From Robiginitalea aurantiaca (GTDB taxonomy: Bacteria; Bacteroidota; Bacteroidia; Flavobacteriales; Flavobacteriaceae), in contig NZ_JAUDUY010000004.1 of NCBI RefSeq assembly GCF_030380815.1, forward strand, positions 62,001 to 126,000: a stretch of 64,000 nucleotides of DNA, written 5' to 3'. Shown here piece by piece: positions 6,509 through 52,733 of the stretch. Within the stretch, counting starts at the first letter, position 1, and each line of letters starts with the position of its first letter. The notes under the pieces are model-generated. The model ran no database searches. It was not told the DNA's origin and was given only the letters and a program-made list of their open reading frames with translations. The position numbers and the translations under genes are program-made.

Positions 6509-7400
6509 CCTGCAATCGCGCGTTTGGCCCCCCATCTCTGTGTTTCCAGCGCTTGTGTGTCCAGAAATAGTATTCGGGAGCCTCTTTGATAGCCGTTTCC
6601 ACTTCCCGGAAGAAGGCATCCGTGATTTCGTATTCGGGTACCTCCTGTGGCTTTTCAGCCAGGACGATAAAGGTCCCCTGGTAATGCCCGCGCTTTAATT
6701 TTCTGACTTTCAGATACAGGGCGGGCAGATCAAATTTTTTGCACAGGGTTTCTGCACCCACATGCATAGGGACTTCAATCCCCATAAAAGGAGCCCAGTA
6801 CCGGGCTTTTTTTCGCGTAGGAGACTGATCGCTAAGCATGCCATAAGTAGCAAGAACCCCATCCGCTTTATTCTTGGCCATTACCTTCCAGGATTCGGCT
6901 GTTGTAATCAGGGTGGTGCCCAAGCGGGCCCTAACCCGCCGAACCCAGCGGTCAAAATACCTGTTGTTTAAACGTTGATACACCCCATAACCCTTACTCC
7001 TGATGTAGGGATCCAAAGCGATTGTCCATTCCCAGCTCGCATAGTGCGGAAAAAAGGTTACCGTACTCTTGTTGTTTGCCTCGAAATTGCGGAAGGTTTC
7101 CAGATTTGTGAACACGAATCGCTTTTGTAATTCTTCGGCGCTAATCCCAAGGGTTTTAACCATCTCAAGAAACATATCGCACATGTGCAAATAAAATGCC
7201 CTTTCAATCTTAGACCGTTCTTTTTCAGACTTCTCCGGAAAGACAAGTTGGAGGTTTTCCCGCACCACTTTTCGCCTGTATCGCACAAGGCTATAAACAA
7301 TCAAGAACAAACCGTCGGATAAGAGGTATATGAAGCGGAAAGGTAATTTTGAAATACCCCACAAAACAGGGAAGACCACCAAGTACACGAGTCTTTGCAT
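6501..7400 (-). CDS. Lipid A biosynthesis (LpxL/HtrB-type) acyltransferase
   Basis: 299 aa from the ATG at 7400 (MQRLVYLVVFPVLWGISKLPF); the upstream in-frame start at 7418 would fall inside the -7 element. A hydrophobic N-terminal anchor is followed by RRKVVRENLQLVFPEKS and the catalytic HX4E motif (FPHYASWEW), then a DQSPTRKKARYW segment and a C-terminal YYFWTHKRWKHR block typical of LpxL/LpxM enzymes. It should add a secondary acyl chain to lipid A on the inner face of the cytoplasmic membrane. It is divergent from the rhomboid gene, separated by a palindromic double promoter. Confidence 0.88.
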   Translation of the reverse strand: MQRLVYLVVFPVLWGISKLPFRFIYLLSDGLFLIVYSLVRYRRKVVRENLQLVFPEKSEKERSKIERAFYLHMCDMFLEMVKTLGISAEELQKRFVFTNLETFRNFEANNKSTVTFFPHYASWEWTIALDPYIRSKGYGVYQRLNNRYFDRWVRRVRARLGTTLITTAESWKVMAKNKADGVLATYGMLSDQSPTRKKARYWAPFMGIEVPMHVGAETLCKKFDLPALYLKVRKLKRGHYQGTFIVLAEKPQEVPEYEITDAFFREVETAIKEAPEYYFWTHKRWKHRDGGPNARLQVN

Positions 7401-7415
7401 GCAAAGTAATATGGG

Positions 7416-7433
7416 CAAATATAGCTATATTTG
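7416..7433. promoter_or_regulatory. 18-bp palindrome forming back-to-back -7 elements
   Basis: CAAATATAGCTATATTTG is a perfect palindrome whose two halves are TATATTTG -7 elements pointing in opposite directions. One faces the acyltransferase (start at 7400, minus) and the other the rhomboid gene (start at 7455, plus). A good TTG at -33 is not evident on either side. Confidence 0.45.
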
Positions 7434-7454
7434 GACCGATTTAAAGAGTGCTTC

Positions 7455-8102
7455 ATGAATTTGCATATCGCTACGATTGCCATTATTGCTGCTAATATCC
7501 TGGTGTCTCTCCGAGGCTTTAAGGATTATGGTTTTTTTGAACGATACAAGTTTAATATCGGTGCCATTCTGGGGGGACAGAAGGACCGGATGTTCACTTC
7601 CGGGTTTTTACATGTGGATGGCAGCCATTTGTTGTTAAACATGTTTACCCTTTATTTTTTTGCCAGTGTCGTTATTCAGTGGTTCGGGCCTGTAAAGTTT
7701 CTGATCGTTTACGTAATCAGCCTTCTGGCCGGCAGTCTCTTGGCACTCTCATTCCATAAAAAGGAACCTTTTTACAGTGCCGTAGGAGCAAGTGGTGCGG
7801 TGACTGGTGTGCTTTACGCGGCTATTTTGTTGCAGCCCGATATGCGTTTGGCACTGATGTTCATACCCATTCCATTACCTGCCTACATTCTGGGGATTGC
7901 CTACCTGATGTATTCGATCTACGGGATGAAGAAGCGCCTGGGCAACATCGGACACACGGCGCACTTTGGCGGTGCGGTGGGGGGATATATAACCACACTT
8001 ATCTTTATGCCTTCAATCATCACCACACATCCCGTAATGGTACTCCTGCTGGCCCTTCCGATAGTCTTGCTTTTTATTCTTGAAAAAACCGGGAAGTTAT
8101 AA
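7455..8102 (+). CDS. Rhomboid family intramembrane serine protease
   Basis: 215 aa from ATG 7455 (MNLHIATIAI); an earlier ATG at 7431 overlaps the -7 element. About six membrane segments are visible. The catalytic serine is in GASGAVTG (Ser113), and the histidine partner is in HTAHFGGA (His167/His170). The early HVDGSHLLLNM motif and the N-terminal loop MFTSGFLH are typical of bacterial rhomboids. It cuts substrates within the membrane; the substrate is unknown. Confidence 0.9.
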   Translation: MNLHIATIAIIAANILVSLRGFKDYGFFERYKFNIGAILGGQKDRMFTSGFLHVDGSHLLLNMFTLYFFASVVIQWFGPVKFLIVYVISLLAGSLLALSFHKKEPFYSAVGASGAVTGVLYAAILLQPDMRLALMFIPIPLPAYILGIAYLMYSIYGMKKRLGNIGHTAHFGGAVGGYITTLIFMPSIITTHPVMVLLLALPIVLLFILEKTGKL

Positions 8103-16780: not shown

Positions 16781-18118
16781 ATGAAGAAACTCGAACTGCA
16801 TTGGCAGATTCTGATTGGCATGTTATTCGGAATCCTGTTTGGTTTCGCGATGACGTACCCTGAATGGGGACCTCAATTTGTACAGGATTGGATCAGTCCG
16901 TTCGGTACAATCTTCGTAAAGCTTTTGAAATTAATTGCGATTCCGCTCATTCTGGCCTCCCTGATAAAGGGTATTTCAGATCTGCAGGATATCAGCAAAT
17001 TCAAAAACATTGGACTGAGAACCATAGCTATCTATATTGTTACTACCGTTATTGCCATTACAATTGGGTTAATTCTGGTCAATCTCATGAAGCCCGGAGA
17101 TGGCATCTCTGAGGACACGATCACCAAACTGACCGAGACATACGCCACCGATTCAGGGGTGACCTCCAAACTCGAGGAAGCCAACAGGCAAAAGGACAGC
17201 GGACCCCTGCAATTCCTGGTCGATATGGTGCCCGACAATGCGTTTCGGGCTGTAAGTGATAACAGCCTGATGCTGCAGGTGATTTTCTTCACCATCTTTT
17301 TGGGAATTTCCATGCTGCTGATCGGTGAAAAGGCTGCAAGGCCTTTAAAGGAATTTTTTGATTCCCTCAACGAGGTCGTATTGAAAATGGTTGATCTCAT
17401 TATGCTGACTGCCCCGATTGCTGTTTTTGCCCTTCTGGCCAATGTCGTGGTTTCTTCCGGAGATCCGGATCTGTTATATGCCCTCTTGAAATACAGTGGG
17501 GTAGTGGTTCTCGGCTTGATGCTCATGATTGTGTTCTACAGTTTGGTGGTCTCTGTTTTTGTAAAATATAATCCGATCAAATTCCTCAGTAAAATCAGTC
17601 CGGCACAACTGCTGGCGTTTTCGACGAGTTCTAGCGCGGCAACGCTTCCCGTTACCATGGAGCGTGTAGAGGAGCATATTGGCGTGGATAAAGAAGTCTC
17701 GAGTTTTGTCTTACCGGTAGGCGCGACCATAAATATGGACGGGACCAGCCTTTACCAGGGGGTGGCAGCTGTTTTTATTTCCCAGGCGCTTGGCTTTGAC
17801 CTTACCCTGGGCGGACAACTAACCATTATCCTGACTGCCCTTCTGGCTTCCATCGGCTCAGCGGCCGTGCCCGGGGCAGGAATGGTAATGCTCGTGATTG
17901 TTCTCGAATCCATTGGGTTCCCGCCGGATAAACTCGCCATAGGTTTGGCCCTTATTTTTGCTGTTGACCGTCCTCTGGATATGCTCAGAACCGTAGTGAA
18001 TGTTACTGGAGACGCCATGGTTTCTATGCTCGTAGCGAAATCCGTCGGCAAGCTCGGGGAACCGGTTGAAAAAAAATGGAATGATCATTTGGATGAAGTA
18101 ACACACAAAGACGACTGA
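16781..18118 (+). CDS. Dicarboxylate/amino acid:cation symporter (DAACS family)
   Basis: 445 aa membrane protein. The N-terminus LHWQILIGMLFGILFGF, the serine-rich hairpin AFSTSSSAATLPVTME (re-entrant loop 1) and NMDGTSLYQGVAAVFI (binding/TM7 motif), then SIGSAAVPGAGMVML and DRPLDMLRTVVNVTGDA identify the GltP/DctA family. It takes up glutamate, aspartate or C4 acids with Na+ or H+. Its TGA overlaps the ATG of the ATP-grasp gene, so it is probably the first gene of a four-gene operon and may feed its substrate to the ligase. Confidence 0.9.
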   Translation: MKKLELHWQILIGMLFGILFGFAMTYPEWGPQFVQDWISPFGTIFVKLLKLIAIPLILASLIKGISDLQDISKFKNIGLRTIAIYIVTTVIAITIGLILVNLMKPGDGISEDTITKLTETYATDSGVTSKLEEANRQKDSGPLQFLVDMVPDNAFRAVSDNSLMLQVIFFTIFLGISMLLIGEKAARPLKEFFDSLNEVVLKMVDLIMLTAPIAVFALLANVVVSSGDPDLLYALLKYSGVVVLGLMLMIVFYSLVVSVFVKYNPIKFLSKISPAQLLAFSTSSSAATLPVTMERVEEHIGVDKEVSSFVLPVGATINMDGTSLYQGVAAVFISQALGFDLTLGGQLTIILTALLASIGSAAVPGAGMVMLVIVLESIGFPPDKLAIGLALIFAVDRPLDMLRTVVNVTGDAMVSMLVAKSVGKLGEPVEKKWNDHLDEVTHKDD

Positions 18119-19149
18119 TGAATATTTGTTTCTTAATGTATCCCTGGGAGGAAATCGACCCTCTGAACGATACCAGCCTCGCACTGATTCACGAATGCGT
18201 CAAAAGAGATCACGGGGTCGCCCTTTGTACCCCTGCAAACCTGACAATTCGAAATAGTGTAACGAGTGCTTTCTGTACAGTGATCAACAGGATGGAAAAA
18301 GTGCCTGCCAATCTTAAGGCATTTTACAACAAAGCAAAGATTAGAGAGGAAATGCTGCCCCTGGCGGGATTTGACGTGCTCTTTATGCGGGCAAACCCAC
18401 CCCTGGATCCCTTGATGCTCAATTTTCTGGATTCCGTAAAAGATGATGTCTTTATCATCAATTCGCTACAGGGCATGCGCGAAGCAAACAATAAACTCTA
18501 TACGGCAGCCTTCGGGGACAGCCATTCCAATATTATCCCCGTTACCCATGTATCCAAAAACAAGAAATATCTTATTCAGCAAATCAGGGAGAGCAAATCG
18601 GATAAGATGATCCTTAAACCTTTAAATGGATTTGGAGGATCCGGGGTGATTTTAATCGAAAAATCGGCCATGTCCAATATCAATTCTCTTTTGGACTTTT
18701 ACATCACCAATGGAGATGGAACCTCGAGTTATGTGATACTTCAGGAGTATATTGAAGGCGCAGACAAAGGAGATATCCGCATTCTGCTGCTCAACGGAGA
18801 ACCTATTGGAGCAATGCGGCGTATTCCGGGTGAAGAAGATCACCGGTCTAATGTCTCTGCCGGAGGCTCCGTTGCAAAGCATAGCCTGACCAAAGAGGAA
18901 AAAGCACTTTGCAAGCAAATAGGGCCTAAATTGGTCAATGACGGACTCTATTTTGTGGGTATCGATGTGATCGGGGGGAAGTTAGTCGAGGTGAATGTGA
19001 TGTCCCCGGGAGGGATTACCTATATGAACAAGGTGTATAAAACCAAGATTCAGTCCCGGGTCATCGATTTTATTGAAAGCAGAGTCCTGGACCAGTTACA
19101 GGCTTTTGACCGGAGATCCCGACTTCGAAAAGAGGTAGACGATGCGTAG
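18118..19149 (+). CDS. Glutathione-synthetase-like ATP-grasp ligase
   Basis: 343 aa. The N-terminal pre-ATP-grasp region (FDVLFMRANPPLDP; NSLQGMREANNKLY) is GshB-like. The ATP-grasp core has KPLNGFGGSGVILIE, YVILQEYIEGADKGDIRILLLNGE, the glycine-rich MRRIPGEEDHRSNVSAGGS and the metal site VEVNVMSPGGI. It should ligate a carboxylate to an amine using ATP. True glutathione synthesis is uncertain because no gamma-glutamylcysteine ligase is nearby and the partners are two hydrolases. Its 3' end overlaps the amidohydrolase start by 8 bp. Confidence 0.85.
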   Translation: MNICFLMYPWEEIDPLNDTSLALIHECVKRDHGVALCTPANLTIRNSVTSAFCTVINRMEKVPANLKAFYNKAKIREEMLPLAGFDVLFMRANPPLDPLMLNFLDSVKDDVFIINSLQGMREANNKLYTAAFGDSHSNIIPVTHVSKNKKYLIQQIRESKSDKMILKPLNGFGGSGVILIEKSAMSNINSLLDFYITNGDGTSSYVILQEYIEGADKGDIRILLLNGEPIGAMRRIPGEEDHRSNVSAGGSVAKHSLTKEEKALCKQIGPKLVNDGLYFVGIDVIGGKLVEVNVMSPGGITYMNKVYKTKIQSRVIDFIESRVLDQLQAFDRRSRLRKEVDDA

Positions 19150-19966
19150 GTTGCTTCCTGAGGAGATGGTAGGGTTAATCCGGTCGGAAACACCCTTTGA
19201 GGCTGTGGCTGCGGACTACTCCTTCACCTTAAAAGTAGATTCGTATGCCCCGTATATCTGCGCAGCCGTTCACGACGGAGGCCAGTTCCGTAAATCCTTA
19301 TGGGATATTTGCACCCATAGCACCTATGAACGATGGTATGAGGAAGATCCCTGTACCCGTGAAATGGTGGCTTCACACCCTATAGTTATATCGGGATCCG
19401 ATAGTCGTTTTGAGTACGATTTGAACCGGCCTCCTGAAGAATGTATATTCGAAGATGCCTGGGGCAAACCGCTTTGGAAGTCCAGGCTGCCCGATTCCGA
19501 GCGAAAGCTAAGTCTGGAAAAGCACAACGCCTTCTACCGGGTGGCCCACGCTTTGGTTGCCCAGATTGAGTCCAAATATGGGGCTGCATTGGTTTTTGAC
19601 ATGCACAGCTACAATTGGAAACGCTGGGAACGGCCGGTTCCTACCTGGAACCTGGGAACAACCAATATCGATACTGACCGGTACGGTGTACAGGTGGAGT
19701 CCTGGAGATCTCGCCTGGGGGAAATCCAATTCCCAAACGACATTCCCTCCTCGGCCCTTGTCAACGATGTGTTTTACGGGAAGGGATATTTTCTGAAATC
19801 CATTACGGAGCGTTTTGACAATACCCTGGTCCTGGCCACTGAAATTGCCAAAGTTTATTGCGATGAATTAACCGGGATTATCTATCCGGAAGTAGTGAAT
19901 GCAGCTGCCCGGCAATTAAAAGAATTGATACCTTTGCAGTTAAATGATTTTCAGGAATCTCTATGA
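19142..19966 (+). CDS. N-formylglutamate amidohydrolase family protein
   Basis: 274 aa. Motifs include YAPYICAAVHDGGQF near the N-terminus (metal-site His), DPCTREMV, FEYDLNRPPEECIFEDAWG and the conserved VFDMHSYNWKR (Asp-His-Ser). The family are zinc amidohydrolases that release small amines from N-blocked glutamate. It is sandwiched by overlapping reading frames between an ATP-grasp ligase and a metallopeptidase (8-bp and 4-bp overlaps), a strong sign that the three act together. Confidence 0.85.
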   Translation: MRRLLPEEMVGLIRSETPFEAVAADYSFTLKVDSYAPYICAAVHDGGQFRKSLWDICTHSTYERWYEEDPCTREMVASHPIVISGSDSRFEYDLNRPPEECIFEDAWGKPLWKSRLPDSERKLSLEKHNAFYRVAHALVAQIESKYGAALVFDMHSYNWKRWERPVPTWNLGTTNIDTDRYGVQVESWRSRLGEIQFPNDIPSSALVNDVFYGKGYFLKSITERFDNTLVLATEIAKVYCDELTGIIYPEVVNAAARQLKELIPLQLNDFQESL

Positions 19967-21135
19967 CTGAAATAGCCTTACTCCCTCAGCTTAAGGAGGA
20001 TTATAAAACGATCTTCGAAATTGATGCCCATCTGGACCGTTTGGTGCAGCGGATTGAGCTGCTCAGTTATATCAATCCCCTGAACGCCGAAAAGGAAAAA
20101 CACCGGTTTTTTACCTCAAAGTATACCGTAGAGCCCCATTTTAAATACCCTAAACTAAAATTTGATCCCTACAGGCTCCATCGGTTGTTCTTCTCGCACC
20201 GCATTGACCGGATTGAAGATGAGGTGATCCGGAACTTGTATAAAGACATAATCTACTTCTATTCCAATATGGTGCAGTGCATCGAAACGATTGGAGAGGG
20301 CAAGGATTTTTATTACAACTCCCTGCGAGTCTATGGCACACCGACAGACCGGGATGTTCAGAACGCCAGGTTTATCCTTCACTTCGAAGAAGATCCTCCC
20401 TCGAAGGCAATGGAAAAAAACAAAAGCGCCGAACACGCCCGATCGTATTTCACAGAATTTTCCAAAGCGTATAATTTTCCCCTGAACATCAGGCTTACGC
20501 CTCATATTTCAGCAGACGCCATGGTGAGCAATACGACCCGGAGTTTACTTTTAAAGCGCAATACCCGTTTTAGTGACAACCAACTTCTCACCCTTGCACA
20601 TCATGAAATAGGGGTGCATTTGGTTACCACTTTTAACGGCCTCCAACAGCCGTTGCGCATATTCTCAAATGGATTACCCAATAACGTAGAGACGCAGGAA
20701 GGATTGGCTGTTTTTAGTGAATACATGGGCGGCGCTTTAACAGTAAAAAGACTCAAAGAATTAGCATACAGGGTATTGGCTACACATACCTTAAGTAAAG
20801 GTTATACATTTTCAGATACCTTTGATCTGATCCATAATCAGTATAAACTCAACCGGGATGATGCTTTTAACATCACCCTGAGGGCGCATCGGGGAGGGGG
20901 CTTCACCAAAGACCGCCTGTACCTCAGTGGCCTGAGAAAGATCTATAAACGCTACCTCAAAGGGAAAGCACTGGAACCCCTCTTATTGGGTAAGGTCTCC
21001 ATGGAATACGAAAGTGAAATCCTCCATCTGCAAAGCCTCGGATTAAGTCAGCACAGTGCGCATGAGTCCCATAGCTTCCTCGAAAAGCGTATCGACAACC
21101 CCACCCTTGATTTTATCCTCAATAACCTGAAGTGA
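19963..21135 (+). CDS. QEGLA-motif (DUF1704) metallopeptidase, homologous to MATCAP-type tyrosine carboxypeptidases
   Basis: 390 aa. It has the HExxxH zinc motif HEIGVH (His214, Glu215, His219) and the family-defining TQEGLAVFSEYMGG (Glu246). In bacteria the family is called flavohemoglobin-expression-modulating QEGLA protein (TIGR02421). Eukaryotic relatives (MATCAP) remove C-terminal tyrosine from tubulin. The start overlaps the amidohydrolase stop (ATGA). It is the last gene of the symporter-ligase-amidohydrolase-peptidase operon. The bacterial substrate is unknown; a C-terminal residue trimmer is my inference from family and context. Confidence 0.88.
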   Translation: MTEIALLPQLKEDYKTIFEIDAHLDRLVQRIELLSYINPLNAEKEKHRFFTSKYTVEPHFKYPKLKFDPYRLHRLFFSHRIDRIEDEVIRNLYKDIIYFYSNMVQCIETIGEGKDFYYNSLRVYGTPTDRDVQNARFILHFEEDPPSKAMEKNKSAEHARSYFTEFSKAYNFPLNIRLTPHISADAMVSNTTRSLLLKRNTRFSDNQLLTLAHHEIGVHLVTTFNGLQQPLRIFSNGLPNNVETQEGLAVFSEYMGGALTVKRLKELAYRVLATHTLSKGYTFSDTFDLIHNQYKLNRDDAFNITLRAHRGGGFTKDRLYLSGLRKIYKRYLKGKALEPLLLGKVSMEYESEILHLQSLGLSQHSAHESHSFLEKRIDNPTLDFILNNLK

Positions 21136-21555
21136 TCAGGAAGTCGTTAGGAATTTAGCTTTCAGCTCTGGCGTGGGAATCATGCATTCCTGCTTTTTAC
21201 CAAAGAGACGGTACCTGTTTTTTGCTATGAAATCGTAGATGACATCCCGAAATGCCTTCGGGATCCAGGAGGTAATGGCCGGAAGAAAACCATAACCTTT
21301 TAAGTTCCGTGCGATCTCCAGGGCGGCGTCAGATTTGATATAATAGGCCACTCCCGGATCTATAAGGATAATGGAATCAATCCGTGAAGTATCGATGTTG
21401 CGCTCTTCTAAAAGTTTGCCGGAGGCCGCGCTCTGTAAGGGCGCAAAGCGAAAAACATCTTCCTTATCCCGCTGGATGATCCACTGCACGGCCCCATTGC
21501 AGAGGTTGCAGACCCCATCGAATAATATGATCTTTTTGCCAGTGGCTTCCTGCAT
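21136..21555 (-). CDS. DCC-family thiol-disulfide oxidoreductase-like protein
   Basis: About 139 aa from ATG 21555 (MQEATGKKIILFDGVCNLCN). The DGVCNLCN motif carries the CxxC pair defining the DUF393/DCC family, followed by FRFAPLQSAASGKLL and a C-terminal RDVIYDFIAKNRYRLFG. It is a small cytoplasmic protein presumed to have redox activity. The stop abuts the convergent QEGLA gene directly. Confidence 0.85.
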   Translation of the reverse strand: MQEATGKKIILFDGVCNLCNGAVQWIIQRDKEDVFRFAPLQSAASGKLLEERNIDTSRIDSIILIDPGVAYYIKSDAALEIARNLKGYGFLPAITSWIPKAFRDVIYDFIAKNRYRLFGKKQECMIPTPELKAKFLTTS

Positions 21556-21754
21556 AGTGCAAAGGTATGCATAAGGACCTAAATGCAACGTTTGATTTTA
21601 TTTTGAATCAGGGCATGAAGCAAGCGCGAGACGTTTTGATGGCTTTGTGATTTTGTTTTGCAGGGTGGAGTCCTACCTTGTAAGTGGGAGGGAGGGGGCG
21701 CCCAATATAGGGGGTACACCTACTTACGACCACCACCCCCGAATTAAGCAAATA

Positions 21755-41966: not shown

Positions 41967-42530
41967 ATGAAATTATCGGGACGAATTGGGAGTGTTTTCT
42001 CATGCTTTTTAGTGTTGGTCAGCCTGAATACGGCCTGTAAATCTGCTACAACTCCTATGTCTGAAGCAGAACAACAGCGACTGGACCGGATTATAACGGA
42101 CCGCAATTTTACGATGATTGCCCAGTGGGCTGAACCCACTCCTGATGCGGGGATCAATGCTGCCGCGAATGCCGGGCTTTTTCCGCCGGGAAGCAGTCCA
42201 AACCGGATAAATCTCGGGGAGAATTCCAATTACCTTAAAATGAAGGGGGATTCCGTGTTTATCCAATTGCCGTACTACGGGGAGCGGCAGGTTGTTAAAA
42301 CATACGGCCAGGCCGAGGGAATTAACTACGAGGGCCTGGCAAATGACCTGAAAATCAATCGAGATTCAGATCGCAATTATTACGATATTGATTTCAAAGC
42401 CAAAGACCGGGGAGAAAGCTTTATCTGCAACCTCAGGTTATATGGGGGTACACGGGGTTTGCTGACCATTCAGAGCAATCAGCGAAATCAAATCAGGTAT
42501 GATGGAACGATAACGATAGCAAAAGAATGA
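41967..42530 (+). CDS. DUF4251 lipoprotein, copy 1
   Basis: 187 aa lipoprotein (MKLSGRIGSVFSCFLVLVSLNTAC). DUF4251 motifs NYLKMKGDSVFIQLPYYGERQ and YGQAEGINYEG lead to a C-terminal beta strand repeat. DUF4251 proteins are Bacteroidota cell-envelope proteins of unknown function. A homologue follows 88 bp downstream, with matching motifs, so this is a tandem duplication. Confidence 0.8.
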   Translation: MKLSGRIGSVFSCFLVLVSLNTACKSATTPMSEAEQQRLDRIITDRNFTMIAQWAEPTPDAGINAAANAGLFPPGSSPNRINLGENSNYLKMKGDSVFIQLPYYGERQVVKTYGQAEGINYEGLANDLKINRDSDRNYYDIDFKAKDRGESFICNLRLYGGTRGLLTIQSNQRNQIRYDGTITIAKE

Positions 42531-42618
42531 ACCGCCACCGGATTTGTCCATTTATCTGGAGCGTTTAAAAATCCCTAAAGCGTCAAACATTATTTAGTTT
42601 TCAAGCAAATCAGTCATC

Positions 42619-43113
42619 ATGAACAATACAGGTAAAATCATCTATAGTTTATTCCTCTCTGTGAATCTCTTGTTGCTTATGGGATGTGGTGCCTCAAAGG
42701 AGCCCATAACGGAAGCGACCTGGGAGCAGATGGAAAATATGGTGGAAGGACAAAATTTCACCTTTGTCGCCAAGACCATTGAAACCATGCGAACCGGTTC
42801 CGCCAATCGGATTGACAATCCGGGTTATCTGAAATTCGAAGGGGATCAGGTGGATATGGATCTCCGGTATTTTGGGTCGAGCCAAATGAGCCGGAGTTAT
42901 GGTACTGCAGAAGGATTGCGCGTGGTAGGTACGGCCAAAGATCTGAGCAGCAGTCGCAATACAGCTACGGAATCCGTAGACCTCAAATTCAGCGTGGTCA
43001 ATAAATCAGAAACCCTGCAATGCAACCTGAGGATTTATTCCGGCAAACGAGCAGTTCTTGATGTCAACAGCAACCTGCGCAGTTCCATTCGCTACGATGG
43101 AATCATCCAATAA
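42619..43113 (+). CDS. DUF4251 lipoprotein, copy 2 (tandem paralogue)
   Basis: 164 aa lipoprotein (LLLLMGCGAS). Shared with its neighbour: NYLKFEGDQVDMDLRYFG and YGTAEGLRVVGTA align with YLKMKGDSVFIQLPYYG and YGQAEGINYEGLA. The proteins have diverged considerably, so the duplication is not recent. The same unknown envelope role is expected. An AT-rich patch starts after it. Confidence 0.8.
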   Translation: MNNTGKIIYSLFLSVNLLLLMGCGASKEPITEATWEQMENMVEGQNFTFVAKTIETMRTGSANRIDNPGYLKFEGDQVDMDLRYFGSSQMSRSYGTAEGLRVVGTAKDLSSSRNTATESVDLKFSVVNKSETLQCNLRIYSGKRAVLDVNSNLRSSIRYDGIIQ

Positions 43114-43208
43114 TTTCTATTTCGGCTTTTCTTTAAAACAAAATCACAAAACCCAAACAGGGAAGACCACACCCATATCCTGATATTTTCTATTTGACAT
43201 AATATAAA

Positions 43209-43312
43209 TTATGGTTCAAATACGTCAAATCCCGTAATACGAAGTATTCAACATAAAATGAGTTATAACCCGCATGGAATATAACGTCCAGGATTTTATG
43301 TTGAGGGATTTG
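43209..43312 (+). repeat. Structured 104-bp repeat, copy 1
   Basis: Starts TTATGGTTCA. The outer stem is CAAATCCC (43226-43233) with GGGATTTG (43305-43312). A small hairpin AATACGAAGTATT is at 43236-43248. A perfect 12-bp arm pair TCAACATAAAAT (43248-43259) and ATTTTATGTTGA (43293-43304) encloses an inner GTTATA/TATAAC pair. All positions recur at the same offset 112 bp later. The best reading is a folded nucleic-acid element; mobile or RNA origin is undecided. Confidence 0.75.
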
Positions 43313-43320
43313 CACGTTCC

Positions 43321-43424
43321 TTATGGTTCAATTCCACCAATTCCCGCAATACGAAGTATTTGGCATAAAATCAGTGATGACCTGATAAGGACATAACGTT
43401 ACCGATTTTATGTCAAGGGAATTG
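43321..43424 (+). repeat. Structured 104-bp repeat, copy 2 with compensatory changes
   Basis: Also starts TTATGGTTCA, with identical internal offsets to copy 1. The outer stem becomes CAATTCCC/GGGAATTG (an A-T to T-A swap, pairing kept). The inner arms become TTGGCATAAAAT/ATTTTATGTCAA (C-G to T-A, A-T to G-C, and one A-T to G-T). On a plus-strand RNA the G-T would be a G-U pair. The hairpin AATACGAAGTATT (43348-43360) is unchanged. The pattern suggests selection on pairing. Confidence 0.75.
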
Positions 43425-43522
43425 TTTTATTACAGTTATTGTAAGGTTGTAAAAATGATTGATATCAGGTTTGATAACAGGGATATGGTTCTGGACAAAC
43501 TGTTGTTGTAACTTCTGGAATT

Positions 43523-43675
43523 GTGAGATTAGTTATTGAATTAGCAATATTTGTATTGGCGACAATAGCAATATTCAACTCTGGACGACAAAAAATTAGC
43601 TATGCTTTTGCTCTTATTGTTATTATTCATTATTTAACCTCTTATGATAGAATTCTTTGGCTTTTGGAAAATTAG
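43523..43675 (+). pseudogene. YrdB-family (DUF2568) C-terminal remnant
   Basis: From an in-frame GTG at 43523 the frame encodes VRLVIELAIFVLATIAIFNS and then a hydrophobic stretch ending in LWLLEN before TAG at 43675. This matches the C-terminal half of small YrdB membrane proteins (normally near 110-120 aa, while about 50 codons remain). No ATG or N-terminal half precedes it; an in-frame stop lies just before 43488. It is a truncated gene at the left end of the AT-rich patch. An alternative is a tiny membrane peptide starting at GTG. Confidence 0.6.
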
Positions 43676-43707
43676 AATCACTTAAATGTTTTAAAAAATA
43701 ATTGTTT

Positions 43708-44133
43708 ATGGCAAATAAAGAAATAAAAACATCGATTGAAATTTCAGCTTCTCCGGAGTCAATATGGAAAATTTTAACCGATTTTGAAGATTATGAAAAT
43801 TGGAATCCATTTATAACTAAAATAAGTGGAGAACAAAGAAAAGGAGGAAAATTGAAAGCATTAATAGGTGGCATGAAATTTAAACCATTGGTTTTGAAAT
43901 ATGACGATAATAAGGAATTAAGGTGGTTAGGAACTCTATTTTTAAAAGGTCTATTTGATGGCGAACATAGCTTCCAAATCATTGATAATATGAATGGAAC
44001 TTGCACTTTTTTACAAGAAGAAAAGTTTAACGGAATCTTAGTTGGCCTTTTCGCTAAAAAATTAGAAACTGATACAAAATCTGGCTTTGAGCAAATGAAT
44101 CTTAAACTAAAAGAATTGGCTGAACAAAAGTGA
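43708..44133 (+). CDS. SRPBCC-fold lipid/small-molecule-binding protein
   Basis: 141 aa from ATG 43708 (MANKEIKTSIEISASPESIW). The START-like signature SPESIWKILTDFEDYENWNPFI is at the N-terminus, with alternating beta strands and a C-terminal helix (FEQMNLKLKELAEQ). The GC content is visibly lower than in the genes to either side, as in the rest of this patch, which suggests recent acquisition. The ligand is unknown. An ACAACAATG element follows the stop. Confidence 0.82.
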   Translation: MANKEIKTSIEISASPESIWKILTDFEDYENWNPFITKISGEQRKGGKLKALIGGMKFKPLVLKYDDNKELRWLGTLFLKGLFDGEHSFQIIDNMNGTCTFLQEEKFNGILVGLFAKKLETDTKSGFEQMNLKLKELAEQK

Positions 44134-44139
44134 CTACTG

Positions 44140-44206
44140 ACAACAATGTATATGAAATCATAGCGGCCTATCATCGGCAGGCTAAGAGTCATATACCAAC
44201 CGTTGT
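44140..44206. repeat. Imperfect dyad element after the SRPBCC gene
   Basis: ACAACAATG (44140-44148) at one end and GTTGT (44202-44206) at the other flank an 8-bp perfect inverted pair GTATATGA (44148-44155) / TCATATAC (44189-44196) and an inner TAGC/GCTA pair. The shape resembles an integron attC site, but the core does not match the attC consensus (GTTGTGC instead of GTTRRRY). Confidence 0.5.
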
Positions 44207-44232
44207 GCGTCATTTAAGAATAATGAATGATA

Positions 44233-44940
44233 ATGAAAAAAATAACAATAGATAATTATTTGGATAGCCACTACATTCACCGAAGCAATTGGTTAAGAGC
44301 TGCAGTTTTAGGAGCAAATGATGGGATTATTTCTATTTCAAGCCTTGCCATAGGTATTGCCGCAGCTAGTTCAACAAGAGAACCTGTTGTTTTAGCAACA
44401 GTCGCTGGACTCGTGGCAGGTGCATTATCTATGGCGGCAGGAGAATATGTATCTGTAAGTTCACAAACCGATACTGAAAAAGCGGACATAGAAAGAGAAA
44501 TTAAGGAACTTGAAGAAATGCCAGATGAAGAGTTAAATATATTGGCTCAAATCTATGAAAAAAGAGGGCTAAAAAGTGAAACAGCACGTCAGGTGGCAAA
44601 GGAACTAACTGAAGCAGATGCCTTAGGAGCTCACATTAGGGATGAACTGGGAATTAATGAAATAAGCAAGGCAAACCCTATTCAAGCTGCACTAGCATCT
44701 GGCGCAGCCTTTTTGATTGGTGGTGTTTTACCACTATTAATGATTCTTTTCGCCCCAATAAAAGAAATGGAATATTGGCTGTATGGGTCCACCATCATTT
44801 TCCTAATGATTTTAGGAGCAATGGCTGCAAAAACTGGAGGCTCAGATATTAAGAAAGCAATTGTCAGAATTACTGTTTTGGGAACCATTGCCATGGGACT
44901 TTCTGCATTGGTGGGTTATCTTTTTGGTGTAAATGTTTAA
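44233..44940 (+). CDS. VIT1/CCC1 family metal transporter
   Basis: 235 aa (MKKITIDNYLDSHYIHRSNW; an ATG at 44227 adds two residues). The motif LGANDGIISISSLAIGIAAAS (TM1), GALSMAAGEYVSVSSQTDTEKADIEREIKEL and EMPDEELNILAQIYEKRG are the VIT1/CCC1 iron-manganese transporter signature, followed by three C-terminal spans. It probably exports Fe2+/Mn2+ across the cytoplasmic membrane. It is AT-rich like the preceding gene. A second ACAACAATG element begins 37 bp after the stop. Confidence 0.9.
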   Translation: MKKITIDNYLDSHYIHRSNWLRAAVLGANDGIISISSLAIGIAAASSTREPVVLATVAGLVAGALSMAAGEYVSVSSQTDTEKADIEREIKELEEMPDEELNILAQIYEKRGLKSETARQVAKELTEADALGAHIRDELGINEISKANPIQAALASGAAFLIGGVLPLLMILFAPIKEMEYWLYGSTIIFLMILGAMAAKTGGSDIKKAIVRITVLGTIAMGLSALVGYLFGVNV

Positions 44941-44977
44941 AAATTAAAAAATAGAAAAGCATTTAAAAAACGAAAGC

Positions 44978-45041
44978 ACAACAATGGCCATAAGTAATTG
45001 CTTGTTCTCACCTACTTCTGAAAATTCAAAAGGATTTTCAG
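44978..45041. repeat. ACAACAATGG element with stem-loop after the VIT1 gene
   Basis: ACAACAATGG at 44978-44987 repeats the core seen after the SRPBCC gene. It is followed by a perfect 8-bp hairpin CTGAAAAT (45018-45025) / ATTTTCAG (45034-45041). No clear GTTGT partner was found. About 195 bp separates the VIT1 gene from the next convergent gene; the remainder to 45135 shows nothing else. Confidence 0.4.
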
Positions 45042-45135
45042 TTCCGTGCATACTGGAATAGTTAAGTCCTTACCCAAACAACTAATAATAACCTTGGCAG
45101 TTAGCAAGAACCCACACTAGACATTCCTATTCCCC

Positions 45136-45513
45136 TCAACCCACCCGCCAAGGCGGATTAACCCGGTTCTCCCCCGCATAATACAAAATGAGCTGATTCC
45201 CATCGGGATCTTTAAGCCTGGCCTCTTTCCATAAATAAGGCTGCTCCGTGGGCTCCTGCTCAAAAACAATCCCTTTTTCCTGTAACAAACGAACCTGATC
45301 CTCAAGATTTTCACATTCAAAATACACGTAGATCCCATCACCCGTGGGCAATGCTTCGGTACGGTGAATGGAAAAGGTTGAAGCCCCATTCGGGCATTGA
45401 AATCGGGCATAATGTGGTAATGCCTTTACAATTAATTGTAACCCCAGTGTTTCATAAAATGGGATCGCTTTTTCCAAATCTAACGAAGGAATAGTGATTT
45501 GATTTAAATCCAT
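45136..45513 (-). CDS. VOC (glyoxalase/bleomycin-resistance) superfamily protein
   Basis: 125 aa. The N-terminal LEKAIPFYETLGLQLIVKA and the metal-site region YVYFECENLEDQV, RLKDPDGNQLILYYAG (conserved Asp-Pro-Asp-Gly and Glu/Asp) fit the VOC fold. Activity is unspecified (lyase, dioxygenase or binding). GC rises again here, marking the right end of the AT-rich patch. Confidence 0.85.
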   Translation of the reverse strand: MDLNQITIPSLDLEKAIPFYETLGLQLIVKALPHYARFQCPNGASTFSIHRTEALPTGDGIYVYFECENLEDQVRLLQEKGIVFEQEPTEQPYLWKEARLKDPDGNQLILYYAGENRVNPPWRVG

Positions 45514-45636
45514 GGATTTAGATTTTATGTAATTTCATAGGCCAAACAGGATTCCGGTATCTCAACCCTTTAAAAGTTGAATGCTATAAAAATATCCTTT
45601 TTACACCAGGGAACACGAAATGAATACCCGCATCTT

Positions 45637-46137
45637 ATGAGAACATTCACCCTCCTTGCCCTGACCCTATTACTCTGCTCCTGTAAGCAGGCCCCAAAAG
45701 ATCAGTCCATTGAAATCGAAAGCGCCACTACCCTGTCGACTTCTGAGGTCTCCTTTAAGTGGCTCATGGGCTGCTGGGAGCGCACCAATGAAGCAGAAGG
45801 AAAAGCCACCTTTGAGTTTTGGGAGCCGGTAGATGAAACGGAATATTCCGGTTTTGGATTTACCCTCCAAAATGGAGATACCATCTGGCAGGAGCGCATG
45901 CAGCTTAAAAAGGACCAAGGTATCTGGGCACTGCATATAAAAGCGCCCGAAGACCCGGAACCGGTCGTTTTCAGGATGACCCACTCCGATAGTCTGGGCT
46001 TTACCTGTGAAAACCCTGAAATTGCATTTCCACAAAAAATCAAATACTGGAAGAGCGAAAATGGCATTCAGGCTGCAGTATCTGATAGTACAGCTGTAAT
46101 CCCTTTTGAATTTAGCCCATGGAAAGACCAAAATTGA
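45637..46137 (+). CDS. Lipoprotein (DUF6265-like)
   Basis: 166 aa from ATG 45637 (MRTFTLLALTLLLCSC), a classic lipobox. FKWLMGCWERTNEAEGKATFEFW and EYSGFGFTLQNGDTIWQERMQLKK resemble the DUF6265 family. It is exported; the function is unknown. It overlaps the start of the DUF1648 gene by 19 bp, so the two are probably translated together. Confidence 0.72.
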   Translation: MRTFTLLALTLLLCSCKQAPKDQSIEIESATTLSTSEVSFKWLMGCWERTNEAEGKATFEFWEPVDETEYSGFGFTLQNGDTIWQERMQLKKDQGIWALHIKAPEDPEPVVFRMTHSDSLGFTCENPEIAFPQKIKYWKSENGIQAAVSDSTAVIPFEFSPWKDQN

Positions 46138-46634
46138 AAATTAAGTTGCAGCCTATAGATAATGTGATCGAATGGATTGGAATTTTAGGGCTCGTGATTC
46201 TGATAGGCCTGCCAATCTATTTTTATGACCAACTGCCTGATATTATTCCAACACACTTTGGGGCCAACGGAGAAGCTGATGCCTTCAGTGGAAAAGGAAT
46301 GATTTGGACCCTTCCAATAATCGGATTCGTAATGTTTATGGGATTATTTTGGCTCAACAAGCACCCCCATAATTTCAATTTCCCTCAAAAAGTAACAAAG
46401 GAAAACGCCAAAAGATTATATACCACTGGAACCAGGATGATTCGGACTTTGAATGCTTTGATTACCTGGCTATTTACCTATATCACCTATTCCACCATAC
46501 AAGTGGCCATGGGAAATCAGTCAGGTTTAGGCAAATGGTTTTTGCCGGTTTTTATGATCTCGACTTTAGGAACTACTGCATATTTCTTATACAGGTCCAT
46601 GAAAAAAGATCCGCAAACCGCTGGGAACAAATAA
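46119..46634 (+). CDS. DUF1648 integral membrane protein
   Basis: 171 aa with four spans. LPIYFYDQLPDIIPTHFGANGEADAFSGKG is the DUF1648 signature. It is followed by IWTLPIIGFVMFMGLFWLNKHP and TRMIRTLNALITWLFTYITY. DUF1648 proteins resemble SdpI immunity proteins, so an envelope-stress or immunity role is possible. Confidence 0.8.
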   Translation: MERPKLKIKLQPIDNVIEWIGILGLVILIGLPIYFYDQLPDIIPTHFGANGEADAFSGKGMIWTLPIIGFVMFMGLFWLNKHPHNFNFPQKVTKENAKRLYTTGTRMIRTLNALITWLFTYITYSTIQVAMGNQSGLGKWFLPVFMISTLGTTAYFLYRSMKKDPQTAGNK

Positions 46635-46663
46635 AAGGACTATAAGGCAACTTCAAAAAGGCA

Positions 46664-47929
46664 TTATAAGGCCAAACGCCCCCTTAACCCTACTACGAAT
46701 GCACTATTCAAATTGGGGTCCAGGGCCGGGTTTTTAAAGTACTGCACGCTTGGGGTTATCGCAAAATTCTGGGAGAATTGAAATCTGTAAAACAGTTCCG
46801 AGGAGAACTGCCAAATATCACTTTGGGTTTGGCCCCAATTAACACCCAGGCCAAACAGGTCTTTATTTAAATTCGGTTTAAGGATAAACCCGCCTGTATA
46901 GGATTGCGAATAAATAGGTGCACTGCCCTGGGACCATCCTGCTTTAAAAAAAGGCATAAGGGTTTCGTGAAAAGTCCAGTTCCCCCCTATCGCAATCCCC
47001 TGGCTTTCTTCAAGCTCGGCCCTATCTCTTGCATCCGCATGCCAGTAGGTTACATGAAAATTTTTAAAAAACCTCATATCCCTAGAAGGGGACCATGATA
47101 GCTCAACGGACTTGTATAGTTCATCAAAATCGTTAAAAAACTTAACTTCCGTGCCCAATCCGTTAGCATCATTGACTGTGGCACTTATTAGGACTTGATC
47201 TGTGATCCAATGACTTGCTCCTATCCCTGTGCTTAGATCAGGAAAAGCAATACTGGGATTTAGGAGGATTGCAAGGTTTTGAAATGTAGTAAAGGGATTT
47301 ACGTATCCTAAGACATCAAAATAATCATTGGGGTCATATCGTCCGATTATCACACCAGTTCGACCGTTATTGAATTTCTGTTGCCAGTTCAAATCAATAA
47401 GCATCCACTTAGCATCTGTAAATAGTAGGGCTGGTATTCCATTATAGCCAAGTTCAAAGCCTAGTGATCCTGGAGGAAAAGGAGAATAACTGTGACGATG
47501 GTCAACACCAACTGCTAAAACACCCGTATTCAATTTGTTTCTATTTACCAATGTCCACCTGGAGTAGAACTTTAAAAAACCACTACCGGAATAGTCCCAA
47601 ACCTTTTCAGGCGATGATCTTCCCCACATATTGGTACTAGAGTACGTCAAGCTGTATATAAATCCGGTCCTTTCGTTTAGCTGTCGTTTCCAGTCATAAT
47701 AGGGCTGAGATAAAGAGTCTATCAAAGGTAATCTCAATAGCGTATTTTTTTCCTTATCATCTTCAAGCATGAAAAAAGTAGTGATTGAATTAATTCCTTT
47801 TTGAAGGTCACTTGTGTATCCTGATTTCTCTGGAATTGTATCTAATTGCATTTTATCCTCCTGAGCAACAACCGATAATAAAGGTAGAAGCATCACAACC
47901 TCTAATAAGAATAGTTTTCTATAATTCAT
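46664..47929 (-). CDS. OprB-like carbohydrate-selective porin
   Basis: 421 aa with signal peptide. A region at residues 30-75 (SGYTSDLQKGINSITTFFML; SLSQPYYDWKRQL) precedes a barrel with strands such as FYSRWTLVNRNKLNTGVL and GASHWITDQVLIS, ending GLRGRLAL. OprB porins let sugars or other solutes through the outer membrane. It is the last gene of the exported-protein locus. A shorter homologous fragment lies at 48992-49234. Confidence 0.82.
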   Translation of the reverse strand: MNYRKLFLLEVVMLLPLLSVVAQEDKMQLDTIPEKSGYTSDLQKGINSITTFFMLEDDKEKNTLLRLPLIDSLSQPYYDWKRQLNERTGFIYSLTYSSTNMWGRSSPEKVWDYSGSGFLKFYSRWTLVNRNKLNTGVLAVGVDHRHSYSPFPPGSLGFELGYNGIPALLFTDAKWMLIDLNWQQKFNNGRTGVIIGRYDPNDYFDVLGYVNPFTTFQNLAILLNPSIAFPDLSTGIGASHWITDQVLISATVNDANGLGTEVKFFNDFDELYKSVELSWSPSRDMRFFKNFHVTYWHADARDRAELEESQGIAIGGNWTFHETLMPFFKAGWSQGSAPIYSQSYTGGFILKPNLNKDLFGLGVNWGQTQSDIWQFSSELFYRFQFSQNFAITPSVQYFKNPALDPNLNSAFVVGLRGRLAL

Positions 47930-48031
47930 ATGGCCTTAAACTCATTCCTTATTTTGAAGTAAGTCAGATTATTAATTATTCTTTAGTAGACCATCTACAG
48001 GCTATTCGTTACTCATTTATTTTGGATGATT

Positions 48032-48958
48032 TTATCTTGACCCATGCCTTTCAAAAGCTAACTTAGTCATATCTACTGCATCAAACACCTCTAAGCCGGT
48101 CACTTCTTCTACAGCACTTTTATACTGACACATATCGGTGCATTCCAAGATAATCTTTCCCACTTCTGGATTGTCCTTTACAAATTGAGCAGCTACTTTA
48201 ACTAATGAGCGTTCCACAATTTTAGGATCATATTCATCACCTACTATCTTCATAAAATCAGCCCCGTCAGGTGATTCAGTCATCCCTTGAACGATCAGCA
48301 TGTCATCGGTAATTCCCAGTTGCTTATATAATTGATCATCGTAGGCTCTAAGTACTCTGGAACTCACCGTTAAAACCCCTACTTTTTGCCCTTCTGGCAG
48401 ATCACCATAAAGCTCTGGCACAAACACCATGGTTGAGGAGTACACAGGTATATTTACCGCATCCTGAAGGTCTTTTTGAATATTTCCAGTCAAACCACAA
48501 CCACCAACAATTGCCTTGACTCCTTCTTGTTCCAATTCTTTAGCAGCCTGCACCCAAGATGGCAGGTTCCATCCACCCCATCCATCAGGACCTCCGCTGA
48601 ATCCTTCAGGACCCTGATAGTTTGGAACGAATTTCAGATTTACAGGAAAATCGTATGTCTTTAAATTCACATGGTGCCCTGGGTAACTAATCGGTGGATA
48701 CCATACATCAAAAAACAATATTCCTACATCCTGACCGAATGAGAATCTGGCTTTTTCTTCGCTATTCATGTTTCGCTTATAAACGTCATTAATAGCAGGG
48801 TCAAAGGCCAGAGTTGTTATTCGTTCCAGGTTGTTTGTACTGGTGTGTTCCTCAATATTTGATATTTCTTTACTGACTAAATCATTGTTACTTTTTTGAC
48901 CTTCATTTTGGCATGTAGCAAGTAATAGCATCAGTATTATTTTAATTACATTTTTCAT
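48032..48958 (-). CDS. Exported aspartate/glutamate/hydantoin racemase-like lipoprotein
   Basis: 308 aa with lipobox LATC (Cys16). The racemase superfamily motifs are VGGCGLTGNIQ (Cys154) and ILECTDMCQYKSAVEEVTGL (Cys273), the two catalytic thiol positions, and IPVYSSTMVF. Members invert the alpha carbon of Asp, Glu or hydantoins, or are decarboxylases. Cellular members are normally cytoplasmic, so an envelope location is unusual. Its start codon lies in a 22-bp tandem duplication (48942-48985). It sits among amidohydrolases and porins. Confidence 0.78.
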   Translation of the reverse strand: MKNVIKIILMLLLATCQNEGQKSNNDLVSKEISNIEEHTSTNNLERITTLAFDPAINDVYKRNMNSEEKARFSFGQDVGILFFDVWYPPISYPGHHVNLKTYDFPVNLKFVPNYQGPEGFSGGPDGWGGWNLPSWVQAAKELEQEGVKAIVGGCGLTGNIQKDLQDAVNIPVYSSTMVFVPELYGDLPEGQKVGVLTVSSRVLRAYDDQLYKQLGITDDMLIVQGMTESPDGADFMKIVGDEYDPKIVERSLVKVAAQFVKDNPEVGKIILECTDMCQYKSAVEEVTGLEVFDAVDMTKLAFERHGSR

Positions 48959-48985
48959 TTTGGTTAATTACATTTTTCATTTTGG
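48942..48985. repeat. Perfect 22-bp tandem duplication of the racemase start region
   Basis: The 22 bases at 48942-48963 are repeated exactly at 48964-48985. On the minus strand each copy contains ATGAAAAATG, so the initiation region is duplicated: the second ATG (from the distal copy) opens a 12-codon frame that stops at TAA. This looks like a scar next to the truncated porin. Confidence 0.8.
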
Positions 48986-48991
48986 ATTAAA

Positions 48992-49234
48992 CTATTTCCT
49001 TTTCCAGTCAAACCAGGAGACAGTAAGTGAATCCAATCCTGGAAATCTTAATAGCGTTTCTGCCACTGCATCGTCCTGCAATGCTAAGAAGGAGGTTAAA
49101 GAAGCGATTCCCTGTTCAAGTTCACTTGTATATCCCGCTTTGTCCTTCCTGGAAACCTGGAGTGAATCTTCCGATTGAGACCATCCGATTTGAGGCAATA
49201 GGATAAGGAGAAAGACAAAGAGGTATTTCATCAT
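48992..49234 (-). pseudogene. Truncated OprB-like porin (N-terminal fragment)
   Basis: 80 aa: signal peptide (MMKYLFVFLLILLPQIGWS) then AGYTSELEQGIASLTSFLAL...LRFPGLDSLTVSWFDWKRK, then TAG. It aligns with the N-terminal 75 residues of the porin at 46664-47929 (SGYTSDLQKGINSITTFFML...LPLIDSLSQPYYDWKRQ) and stops where the barrel begins. No barrel remains. It is a paralogue fragment, likely non-functional unless used as a short secreted peptide. The tandem repeat lies immediately 3' of it. Confidence 0.75.
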
Positions 49235-49246
49235 AAATAAAGGAAC

Positions 49247-49663
49247 TTAATTCCCTTTGGGTACTCCCCCTCCGGTCTGTTTCTCTATTTCCAACAGTTC
49301 CTTACTTTTTACAAGGGCCTTGCTCATTTGGTCACTGGGCATCAGTTCGATGATATGATACGAAGCCAGAAGCCCCGTTGGAAGGCGCATTACATATACG
49401 GCCTGGATCAATTCGTTGTCGTTTGGCAATTCACAGATGATGTAATTTTTACCATCCCCCAGGCCAAAATAGTAACTGATGATCTTACCTCCTATTTTCT
49501 CGAATGCAGCCGAAACCGCTTCCTTGCGGTCGCCGGGATCATCCATCATCACTTTCCAGGCAGCCGCATTTGGTTCGCCTATAAACATAAAAGTACGGTT
49601 CTCTTGAGCTTGAATACCATAACTCATTATCACGATGAAAAAAATTAGAATAAAACGATTCAT
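49247..49663 (-). CDS. Exported GYD-domain-like protein
   Basis: 138 aa with signal peptide MNRFILIFFIVIMSYGIQA. RKEAVSAAFEKIGGKIISYYFGLGDGKNYIICELPN is the GYD-type dimeric alpha/beta barrel segment. GYD domains are normally cytosolic; this one is exported. It is translated in the same direction as the amidohydrolase genes, 2 bp after the 49666 gene ends. The role is unknown. Confidence 0.75.
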   Translation of the reverse strand: MNRFILIFFIVIMSYGIQAQENRTFMFIGEPNAAAWKVMMDDPGDRKEAVSAAFEKIGGKIISYYFGLGDGKNYIICELPNDNELIQAVYVMRLPTGLLASYHIIELMPSDQMSKALVKSKELLEIEKQTGGGVPKGN

Positions 49664-49665
49664 GA

Positions 49666-50997: not shown

Positions 50998-51013
50998 TTT
51001 TTCATTTTTTTGA

Positions 51014-52717: not shown

Positions 52718-52733
52718 AATCAATAATTTGAGC

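Follow-up and report, generated by a model that had tools for sequence, protein, structure and literature searches.

We analyzed a 64,000-nucleotide stretch of the Robiginitalea aurantiaca genome (contig NZ_JAUDUY010000004.1, positions 62,001 to 126,000; hereafter the window), in which four consecutive genes encode a symporter, a GshB-like ATP-grasp ligase, a hydrolase resembling N-formylglutamate amidohydrolase (FGase), and a homologue of the metallocarboxypeptidase MATCAP (Table 1). A first-pass annotation, made from the letters of this DNA, had described four genes overlapping by 1-8 bp, assigned them to these families, and pointed to HExxxH and QEGLA motifs in the peptidase, all of which was borne out. 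Specifically, the open reading frames (ORFs) overlapped by 1, 8, and 4 bp along the operon, their products matched the Pfam domains SDF, GSH-S_ATP with GSH-S_N, FGase, and MATCAP, and the peptidase contained HEIGVH (residues 214-219) and QEGLA (residues 245-249). The genome, listed as 100% complete, held a single PF08014 match and a single PF02955 match, both in this operon.

Table 1. Genes of the operon, with positions counted from the first nucleotide of the window.
Product	Length	Positions	Strand	Family match	Place in the module
DAACS/SDF symporter (dicarboxylates or acidic amino acids)	445 aa	16781-18118	+	PF00375 (3.7e-126)	Companion gene in flavobacteria, outside the conserved core
GshB-like ATP-grasp ligase, clade A (NF009110/PRK12458)	343 aa	18118-19149	+	PF02955, PF02951	Core
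N-formylglutamate-amidohydrolase-like hydrolase (FGase)	274 aa	19142-19966	+	PF05013	Core
MATCAP/DUF1704 (QEGLA) metallocarboxypeptidase homologue	390 aa	19963-21135	+	PF08014	Core

A conserved module of ligase, FGase, and MATCAP

The ligase, FGase, and MATCAP genes form one real, conserved module that is in places partly fused. In a flavobacterial set comprising the 80 best-scoring MATCAP loci, kept from 177 confirmed loci and biased to flavobacteria, all three genes were found in one locus in 76 cases by tblastn and in 75 when recounted by whole ORFs, the difference being a locus (L036) whose contig stops within MATCAP. The nearest MATCAP relatives of the window among these 80 came from five Robiginitalea (73-75% identity). 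Based on longest ORFs, FGase overlapped MATCAP in 60 of the 74 loci in which a single run contained both, and the ligase overlapped FGase in 33 of the 35 loci where they are direct neighbors; these counts are upper limits, because the farthest start codon was used. Among the aligned flavobacterial rows, identity to the window was 70-90% for the ligase, 52-71% for FGase, and 55-75% for MATCAP. A small protein like that of L049 was present in 27/80 flavobacterial loci; its counterpart in L116 shows a likeness to TerB that scored under the cut-off. The symporter was more loosely associated, overlapping the ligase in only 3 of 67 flavobacterial loci. A symporter gene of this kind was nevertheless present in 79/80 of the flavobacterial loci, as well as in 8 of the 17 module loci of the phylum sample described below, and in none of six complete modules from rhizobia and Photobacterium. 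Co-occurrence of the enzymes without the symporter had been proposed as a check, and ligase, FGase, and MATCAP do lie together in symporter-free loci too.

The phylum sample consisted of 395 Bacteroidota genomes that were not selected for the module, from which 17 module loci were fetched. Nineteen of these genomes had a MATCAP gene. A module-type ligase (>250 bits) was located near MATCAP in 18 of the 19, at a distance of 36 to 2,495 bp, compared with none in the other 376 genomes (Fisher p 3e-30), and an FGase (>150 bits) was present in 15 of the 19 compared with one of the 376 (Fisher p 1e-22). The two cut-offs were chosen after the gaps in the scores were seen: ligase scores fell from 254 to 217 and 205, the latter from GshB-like proteins of two MATCAP-negative genomes, and FGase scores fell from 190 to 41. 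The profiles were made from module members only, so that the counts describe co-occurrence of these subtypes and do not extend to GshB or FGase at large. The sole MATCAP without a ligase (genome G186) was divergent, scoring 133 bits to the module profile and 361.8 bits to PF08014. The sole MATCAP-negative genome with a module-like FGase above 150 bits (G128, positions 7252-8058 of locus L144) had neither ligase nor MATCAP in the 16 kb read around that gene. In two flavobacterial genomes (G103 and G118; loci L113 and L114), a single FGase and a single long MATCAP lie between ligases of the two types that we term A and B, all in the same gene row. A 914 aa ORF at locus L123 was considered as a ligase fusion and set aside; its PF08014 match sits in another frame, and we treated the ORF as read-through.

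Beyond Bacteroidota, our searches covered plasmid and chromid records. In Sinorhizobium, Rhizobium, Aminobacter, and Shinella the gene order was FGase, long MATCAP, and ligase (on pSymB in Sinorhizobium meliloti 1021), and in two Photobacterium records the ligase was followed by a single fused FGase-MATCAP protein. This fusion was found in four proteins in all (loci L083, L084, L112, and L140), the other two being from the Bacteroidota genome G045, where the ligase adjoins it, and from Vibrio sp. HDW18. The long MATCAPs had approximately 230 extra N-terminal residues that were related to FGase (hhalign 94%, E 1.4e-7), gave no Pfam match in the two proteins scanned, and, as read from the alignment, did not have the FGase histidines. 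Going by the profile comparison, this extension is a remote FGase homologue. One further record, labeled Roseateles sp. XES5 (NZ_CP084753.1; L142), is flagged UNVERIFIED_ORG; its gene row resembles that of a Shinella locus (L087), which makes its betaproteobacterial label doubtful.

Relatives of the three enzymes

The peptidase had been proposed to be related to MATCAP, and it proved to be a homologue both by sequence and by predicted fold. It matched PF08014 (formerly DUF1704) with an E value of 6e-102 and 341.8 bits, far above the cut-off of 27, and scored below the cut-off of the QEGLA equivalog TIGR02421 (309 vs 338.65). H214, E215, H219, and Q245-A249 were invariant in a 15-row alignment (A3), including E246, which occupies the third-ligand Glu position in the xEG motif. 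The AlphaFold model of the peptidase (mean predicted local distance difference test score [pLDDT] 81.7; the other four models, 73.1 to 50.4) was placed closest to human MATCAP 7z6s (Z 22.8, root-mean-square deviation 3.3, 290 residues) and 7z5g (Z 22.7, deviation 3.4, 291 residues), the next entry having a Z of 14.0. The fold list also contained DUF885-type proteins (Z 13-14) and M32 peptidases, oligoendopeptidases, and ACE (Z approximately 9-12), whose likeness we take as reflecting a shared zincin-like fold only. In the parts of a study of the human enzymes available to us (PMC10499314), the xEG motif together with HExxxH is also described for TMCP1, both TMCP/MATCAP enzymes cut the C-terminal residue after Glu and shorten polyglutamate, and TMCP1 refuses penultimate Asp or Gln, TMCP2 being reportedly of like sensitivity. 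The same parts report a survey of eukaryotic TMCPs across 22 organisms and contain no mention of bacterial homologues.

Turning to the ligase, its Pfam matches included GSH-S_ATP (PF02955, 2.3e-54) and GSH-S_N (PF02951, 5.5e-23), and its best solved relative was E. coli GshB (8e-40). It passed NF009110 (465 bits vs 408), which is named glutathione synthetase, and the GshB equivalog NF003573 (282.6 vs 272), and failed a second GshB equivalog, TIGR01380 (238.2 vs 299.05), and the RimK model TIGR00768 (93.4 vs 143.4). The RimK Pfam domain PF08443 was passed (72.3 vs 21), with a score below that of PF02955 over the same stretch.

In a phylogenetic reconstruction from 30 hand-chosen rows, which left out most of the 76 flavobacterial ligases, those of genomes G130, G231, G234, and G312, and Shinella L138, considered as a GshB reference, group A (12 sequences), group B (13), and GshB (5) each fell on one side of a branch, with support of 99/99, 100/99, and 98/94, respectively. 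The order among the three groups is not trustworthy, as the tree program warned of long branches. The GshB rows came from E. coli, Legionella, Gordonia, and two Bacteroidota (G194 and G076), the last two of which we named GshB from their GCS2 neighbor. Residue T288 of the E. coli enzyme was T in all five GshB rows and G in all 25 module ligases; residue G234 was replaced by S in 25/25 module ligases, and E292 was lost in 24/25. We take T288 and E292 to lie at or near the acceptor site of GshB. The module ligases share with GshB the N-terminal and ATP-grasp domains and ten positions kept in 30/30 rows (R86, K125, K160, D208, R210, R225, R233, N235, E281, and N283), and differ from it in their neighbors and in the frequent lack of glutamate-cysteine ligase families in their genomes. 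Judged by sequence, then, the ligase is a GshB relative belonging to separate clades with altered diagnostic positions.

These results bear on whether the ligase simply makes glutathione beside unrelated neighbors, a case that the first-pass annotation had set against its own proposal. The passed NF003573 and NF009110 models favor this explanation, while the failed TIGR01380, the separate clades with their changed positions, and the co-occurrence with MATCAP do not. Moreover, the genome of the window had no match to the glutamate-cysteine ligase families PF04107 and PF04262, for which reason we regard ordinary glutathione synthesis as very unlikely. PF08886 also had no match in this genome, in a search without a responding control. 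Among 27 module genomes (18 from the phylum sample and 9 reached via loci; 34 were searched, and L049 was left out), 17 had no PF04107 match, eight had a strong one, and two a marginal one, and PF04262 was found in 0/27. With a probe taken from G194, a GCS2-like gene was detected in none of 97 flavobacterial and phylum-sample loci, and it was present beside both of the GshB-like genes (G194 and G076). At loci L125 and L126, from two Bacteroidota genomes, GshB-like and GCS2 genes are near an ORF of approximately 1,800 aa, with a DNase II-like gene between them in L126.

The window FGase matched PF05013 with an E value of 2e-10 (41.6 bits against a cut-off of 28.9). Its predicted model (pLDDT 87.2) best matched the solved FGase 2q7s (TM-score 0.68, E 2e-10), followed by 2odf (Agrobacterium Atu2144), two bacterial metallo-carboxypeptidases, and, weakly, a succinylglutamate desuccinylase (E 7e-3); a sequence search of the PDB with the protein returned no match. 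Three of the 18 module genomes of the phylum sample (G053, G367, and G273) had no FGase by profile. In each of them, an AstE/AspA gene (PF24827, E 1e-18 to 2e-20) adjoins the ligase, on the opposite strand in G273. Such a gene was detected in 0/14 FGase-bearing module loci of the phylum sample and in 0/80 flavobacterial loci, using as probe the G367 protein alone, which distant members could escape. We read the three cases as probable replacements of FGase by an AstE/AspA acylase with similar chemistry.

Candidate functions of the module

We tentatively favor a reading in which the module both makes and breaks down a small N-acylated, glutamate-containing peptide, in a manner akin to the N-acetylaspartylglutamate (NAAG) cycle. 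The ligase is predicted to activate, at the expense of ATP, a carboxylate on an acidic N-acylated amino acid or dipeptide (probably acyl-Glu) and to couple an amino acid to that compound. MATCAP would take this C-terminal amino acid off again (a penultimate Glu is required by the human relatives of MATCAP), and the FGase-like or AstE/AspA-like enzyme would strip the acyl group and free Glu. In flavobacteria, the adjoining symporter may import the acidic amino acid; as to the product, it could act as an osmolyte or serve to store nitrogen. Each of the three enzymes has relatives acting on glutamate or on N-acylated forms of it, and their predicted activities would fit one compound and one cycle. 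The evidence constrains the class of chemistry fairly well, but not the substrate.

The mammalian NAAG enzymes, in the parts of the source available (PMC3872778), are the ATP-grasp ligase RIMKL, glutamate carboxypeptidase II, and aspartoacylase. The module thus shares with that cycle an ATP-grasp amide ligase, a carboxypeptidase, and an N-acyl-amino-acid hydrolase, and aspartoacylase gives its name to the AstE/AspA family that replaces FGase. In contrast to the mammalian enzymes, the module ligase is GshB-like rather than RimK-like, its peptidase is MATCAP and not glutamate carboxypeptidase II, and its genes form one operon with fusions.

Several points count against this cycle. Only broad-specificity enzyme families lead us to postulate the N-acyl group, and a ligase and two hydrolases acting on one compound in one compartment would amount to futile cycling unless regulated. 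Some PF04107 match was present in 10 of the 27 module genomes. MATCAP was kept and both ligase and FGase were lost in 4/80 flavobacterial loci (L004, L034, L035, and L037), which retained the symporter; a full-length ligase was not found elsewhere in these four genomes. Additionally, the HDW18 fusion had no nearby ligase, and its FGase histidine at H155 was replaced by Tyr, and solitary divergent MATCAPs occur, for example, in Pseudoalteromonas and Legionella. The survival of MATCAP after ligase loss, its solitary occurrence, and the presence of two hydrolases per ligase would fit a module for salvage or detoxification, the hydrolases acting on N-acyl or gamma-linked peptides and the ligase editing or re-capping them. 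We nevertheless assign this explanation a low probability, given that in the flavobacterial rows the ligase is better conserved than either hydrolase, unlike an accessory enzyme.

The rhodanese gene found between ligase and FGase in 32/80 flavobacterial loci and 3/17 module loci of the phylum sample, with a CGSGxTA motif in those rhodaneses that were read, likewise would suit a thiol better than an N-acyl peptide. It is the best argument for a low-molecular-weight thiol system, in which the ligase, consistent with its GshB kinship, would make a glutathione-like tripeptide, MATCAP and FGase would recycle it, and the rhodanese would move sulfur. However, such a rhodanese was absent from 43 of the 75 complete flavobacterial loci, 14 of the 17 phylum-sample loci, and all rhizobial and Photobacterium loci. 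The glutamate-cysteine ligase counts above also argue against a thiol, and where a PF04107 match existed, it was distant from the module or located on a different contig in 7 of 10 genomes, the remaining three being unmapped. We consider a thiol system improbable.

The first-pass annotation had instead proposed a cycle on protein or peptide C-termini, the ligase adding an amino acid and MATCAP removing it, by analogy with tubulin tyrosination. The homology and fold of MATCAP support this idea, since the enzyme that removes tyrosine from tubulin is homologous to the module peptidase. The adding enzyme, on the other hand, is not TTL: the ligase keeps the GshB N-terminal domain and conserved arginines, and matched no TTL family in Pfam or NCBIfam at E values up to 1, so that the likeness drawn to TTL did not hold. 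There is no tubulin in the module's case, and no FGase partner appears in the parts of the tubulin study covered (PMC10499314). A bacterial precedent for an ATP-grasp ligase tied to a remover exists in RimK and RimB, which act in polyglutamylation of the ribosomal protein S6 (RpsF) and also occur as a hybrid protein (PMC11957791, in the sections available). Unlike the module enzymes, RimB is an aspartic protease and RimK belongs to another ATP-grasp family with a protein substrate, and those sections do not mention FGase (PMC11957791). No conserved small precursor gene was noticed among the listed ORFs of at least 60-90 aa. FGase and its AstE/AspA stand-in are left unexplained by a C-terminal tag, and suggest instead that the substrate is a small compound of the N-acyl amino acid kind. 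We think such a tag cycle unlikely. We hold as more doubtful still a version in which ligase and MATCAP would add and remove residues after Glu on a C-terminus, FGase or its dead domain would present the substrate, and the peptidase would be ancestral to the tubulin-tail carboxypeptidases of animals and alveolates.

Expression data exist for Photobacterium damselae, in which, under low salt (1% NaCl), A0J47_RS17020 ('GshB') was up 38.42-fold and A0J47_RS17025 ('QEGLA') up 27.51-fold, according to the parts of the study available (PMC10308900). We suggest that RS17020 is the module ligase because of the consecutive tags and the gene order in the two other Photobacterium. The induction argues for joint regulation and a link to salinity, and not for a particular substrate. 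Regarding a role in defense, the four proteins of the operon had no PADLOC match at E values up to 0.01.

We also noted features around the operon. A gene for a DCC1-like thiol-disulfide oxidoreductase at 21136-21588 on the minus strand converges on it, and DCC1-like ORFs recur by the module in several flavobacterial loci, as read by eye, perhaps through synteny only. The region 42000-50000 of the window had a G+C content of approximately 0.40-0.41, compared with mostly 0.43-0.50 elsewhere, is possibly acquired DNA, and contains an OprB-type porin along with small ORFs of membrane and lipoprotein-like type. Next to this porin, at 48035-54119 on the minus strand, is what looks like a catabolic set: a gene resembling Asp/Glu racemases and three genes for amidohydrolases, of which two overlap. 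The Bacteroidota-type promoter pattern had one match in the whole window, under the chance mean of 2.4, and sigma-70-like sites (13 vs 8.8 expected) and terminator-like sites (12 vs 7.9 expected) were not used as evidence.

Finally, we recognized no description of the module in the openly accessible literature, which omits most subscription papers; within the literature searched, it is undescribed. In 2009, Iyer, Aravind, and colleagues reportedly surveyed ATP-grasp amidoligases by comparative genomics, and their survey may list this neighborhood; MATCAP was reportedly the subject of a 2022 Science paper. By term counts, formylglutamate is not mentioned in two ATP-grasp surveys (PMC4431377 and PMC8939145).

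The module provides a working context for a bacterial family that currently goes by two names, MATCAP and 'flavohemoglobin expression-modulating QEGLA protein'. It also suggests that genes next to MATCAP that carry the annotation 'glutathione synthetases' encode something else. Re-annotation could correct readings of expression data, such as the low-salt 'GshB' of Photobacterium damselae. With three genes in a bacterial system, it becomes testable what the fold of the tubulin-tail carboxypeptidases natively acts on.

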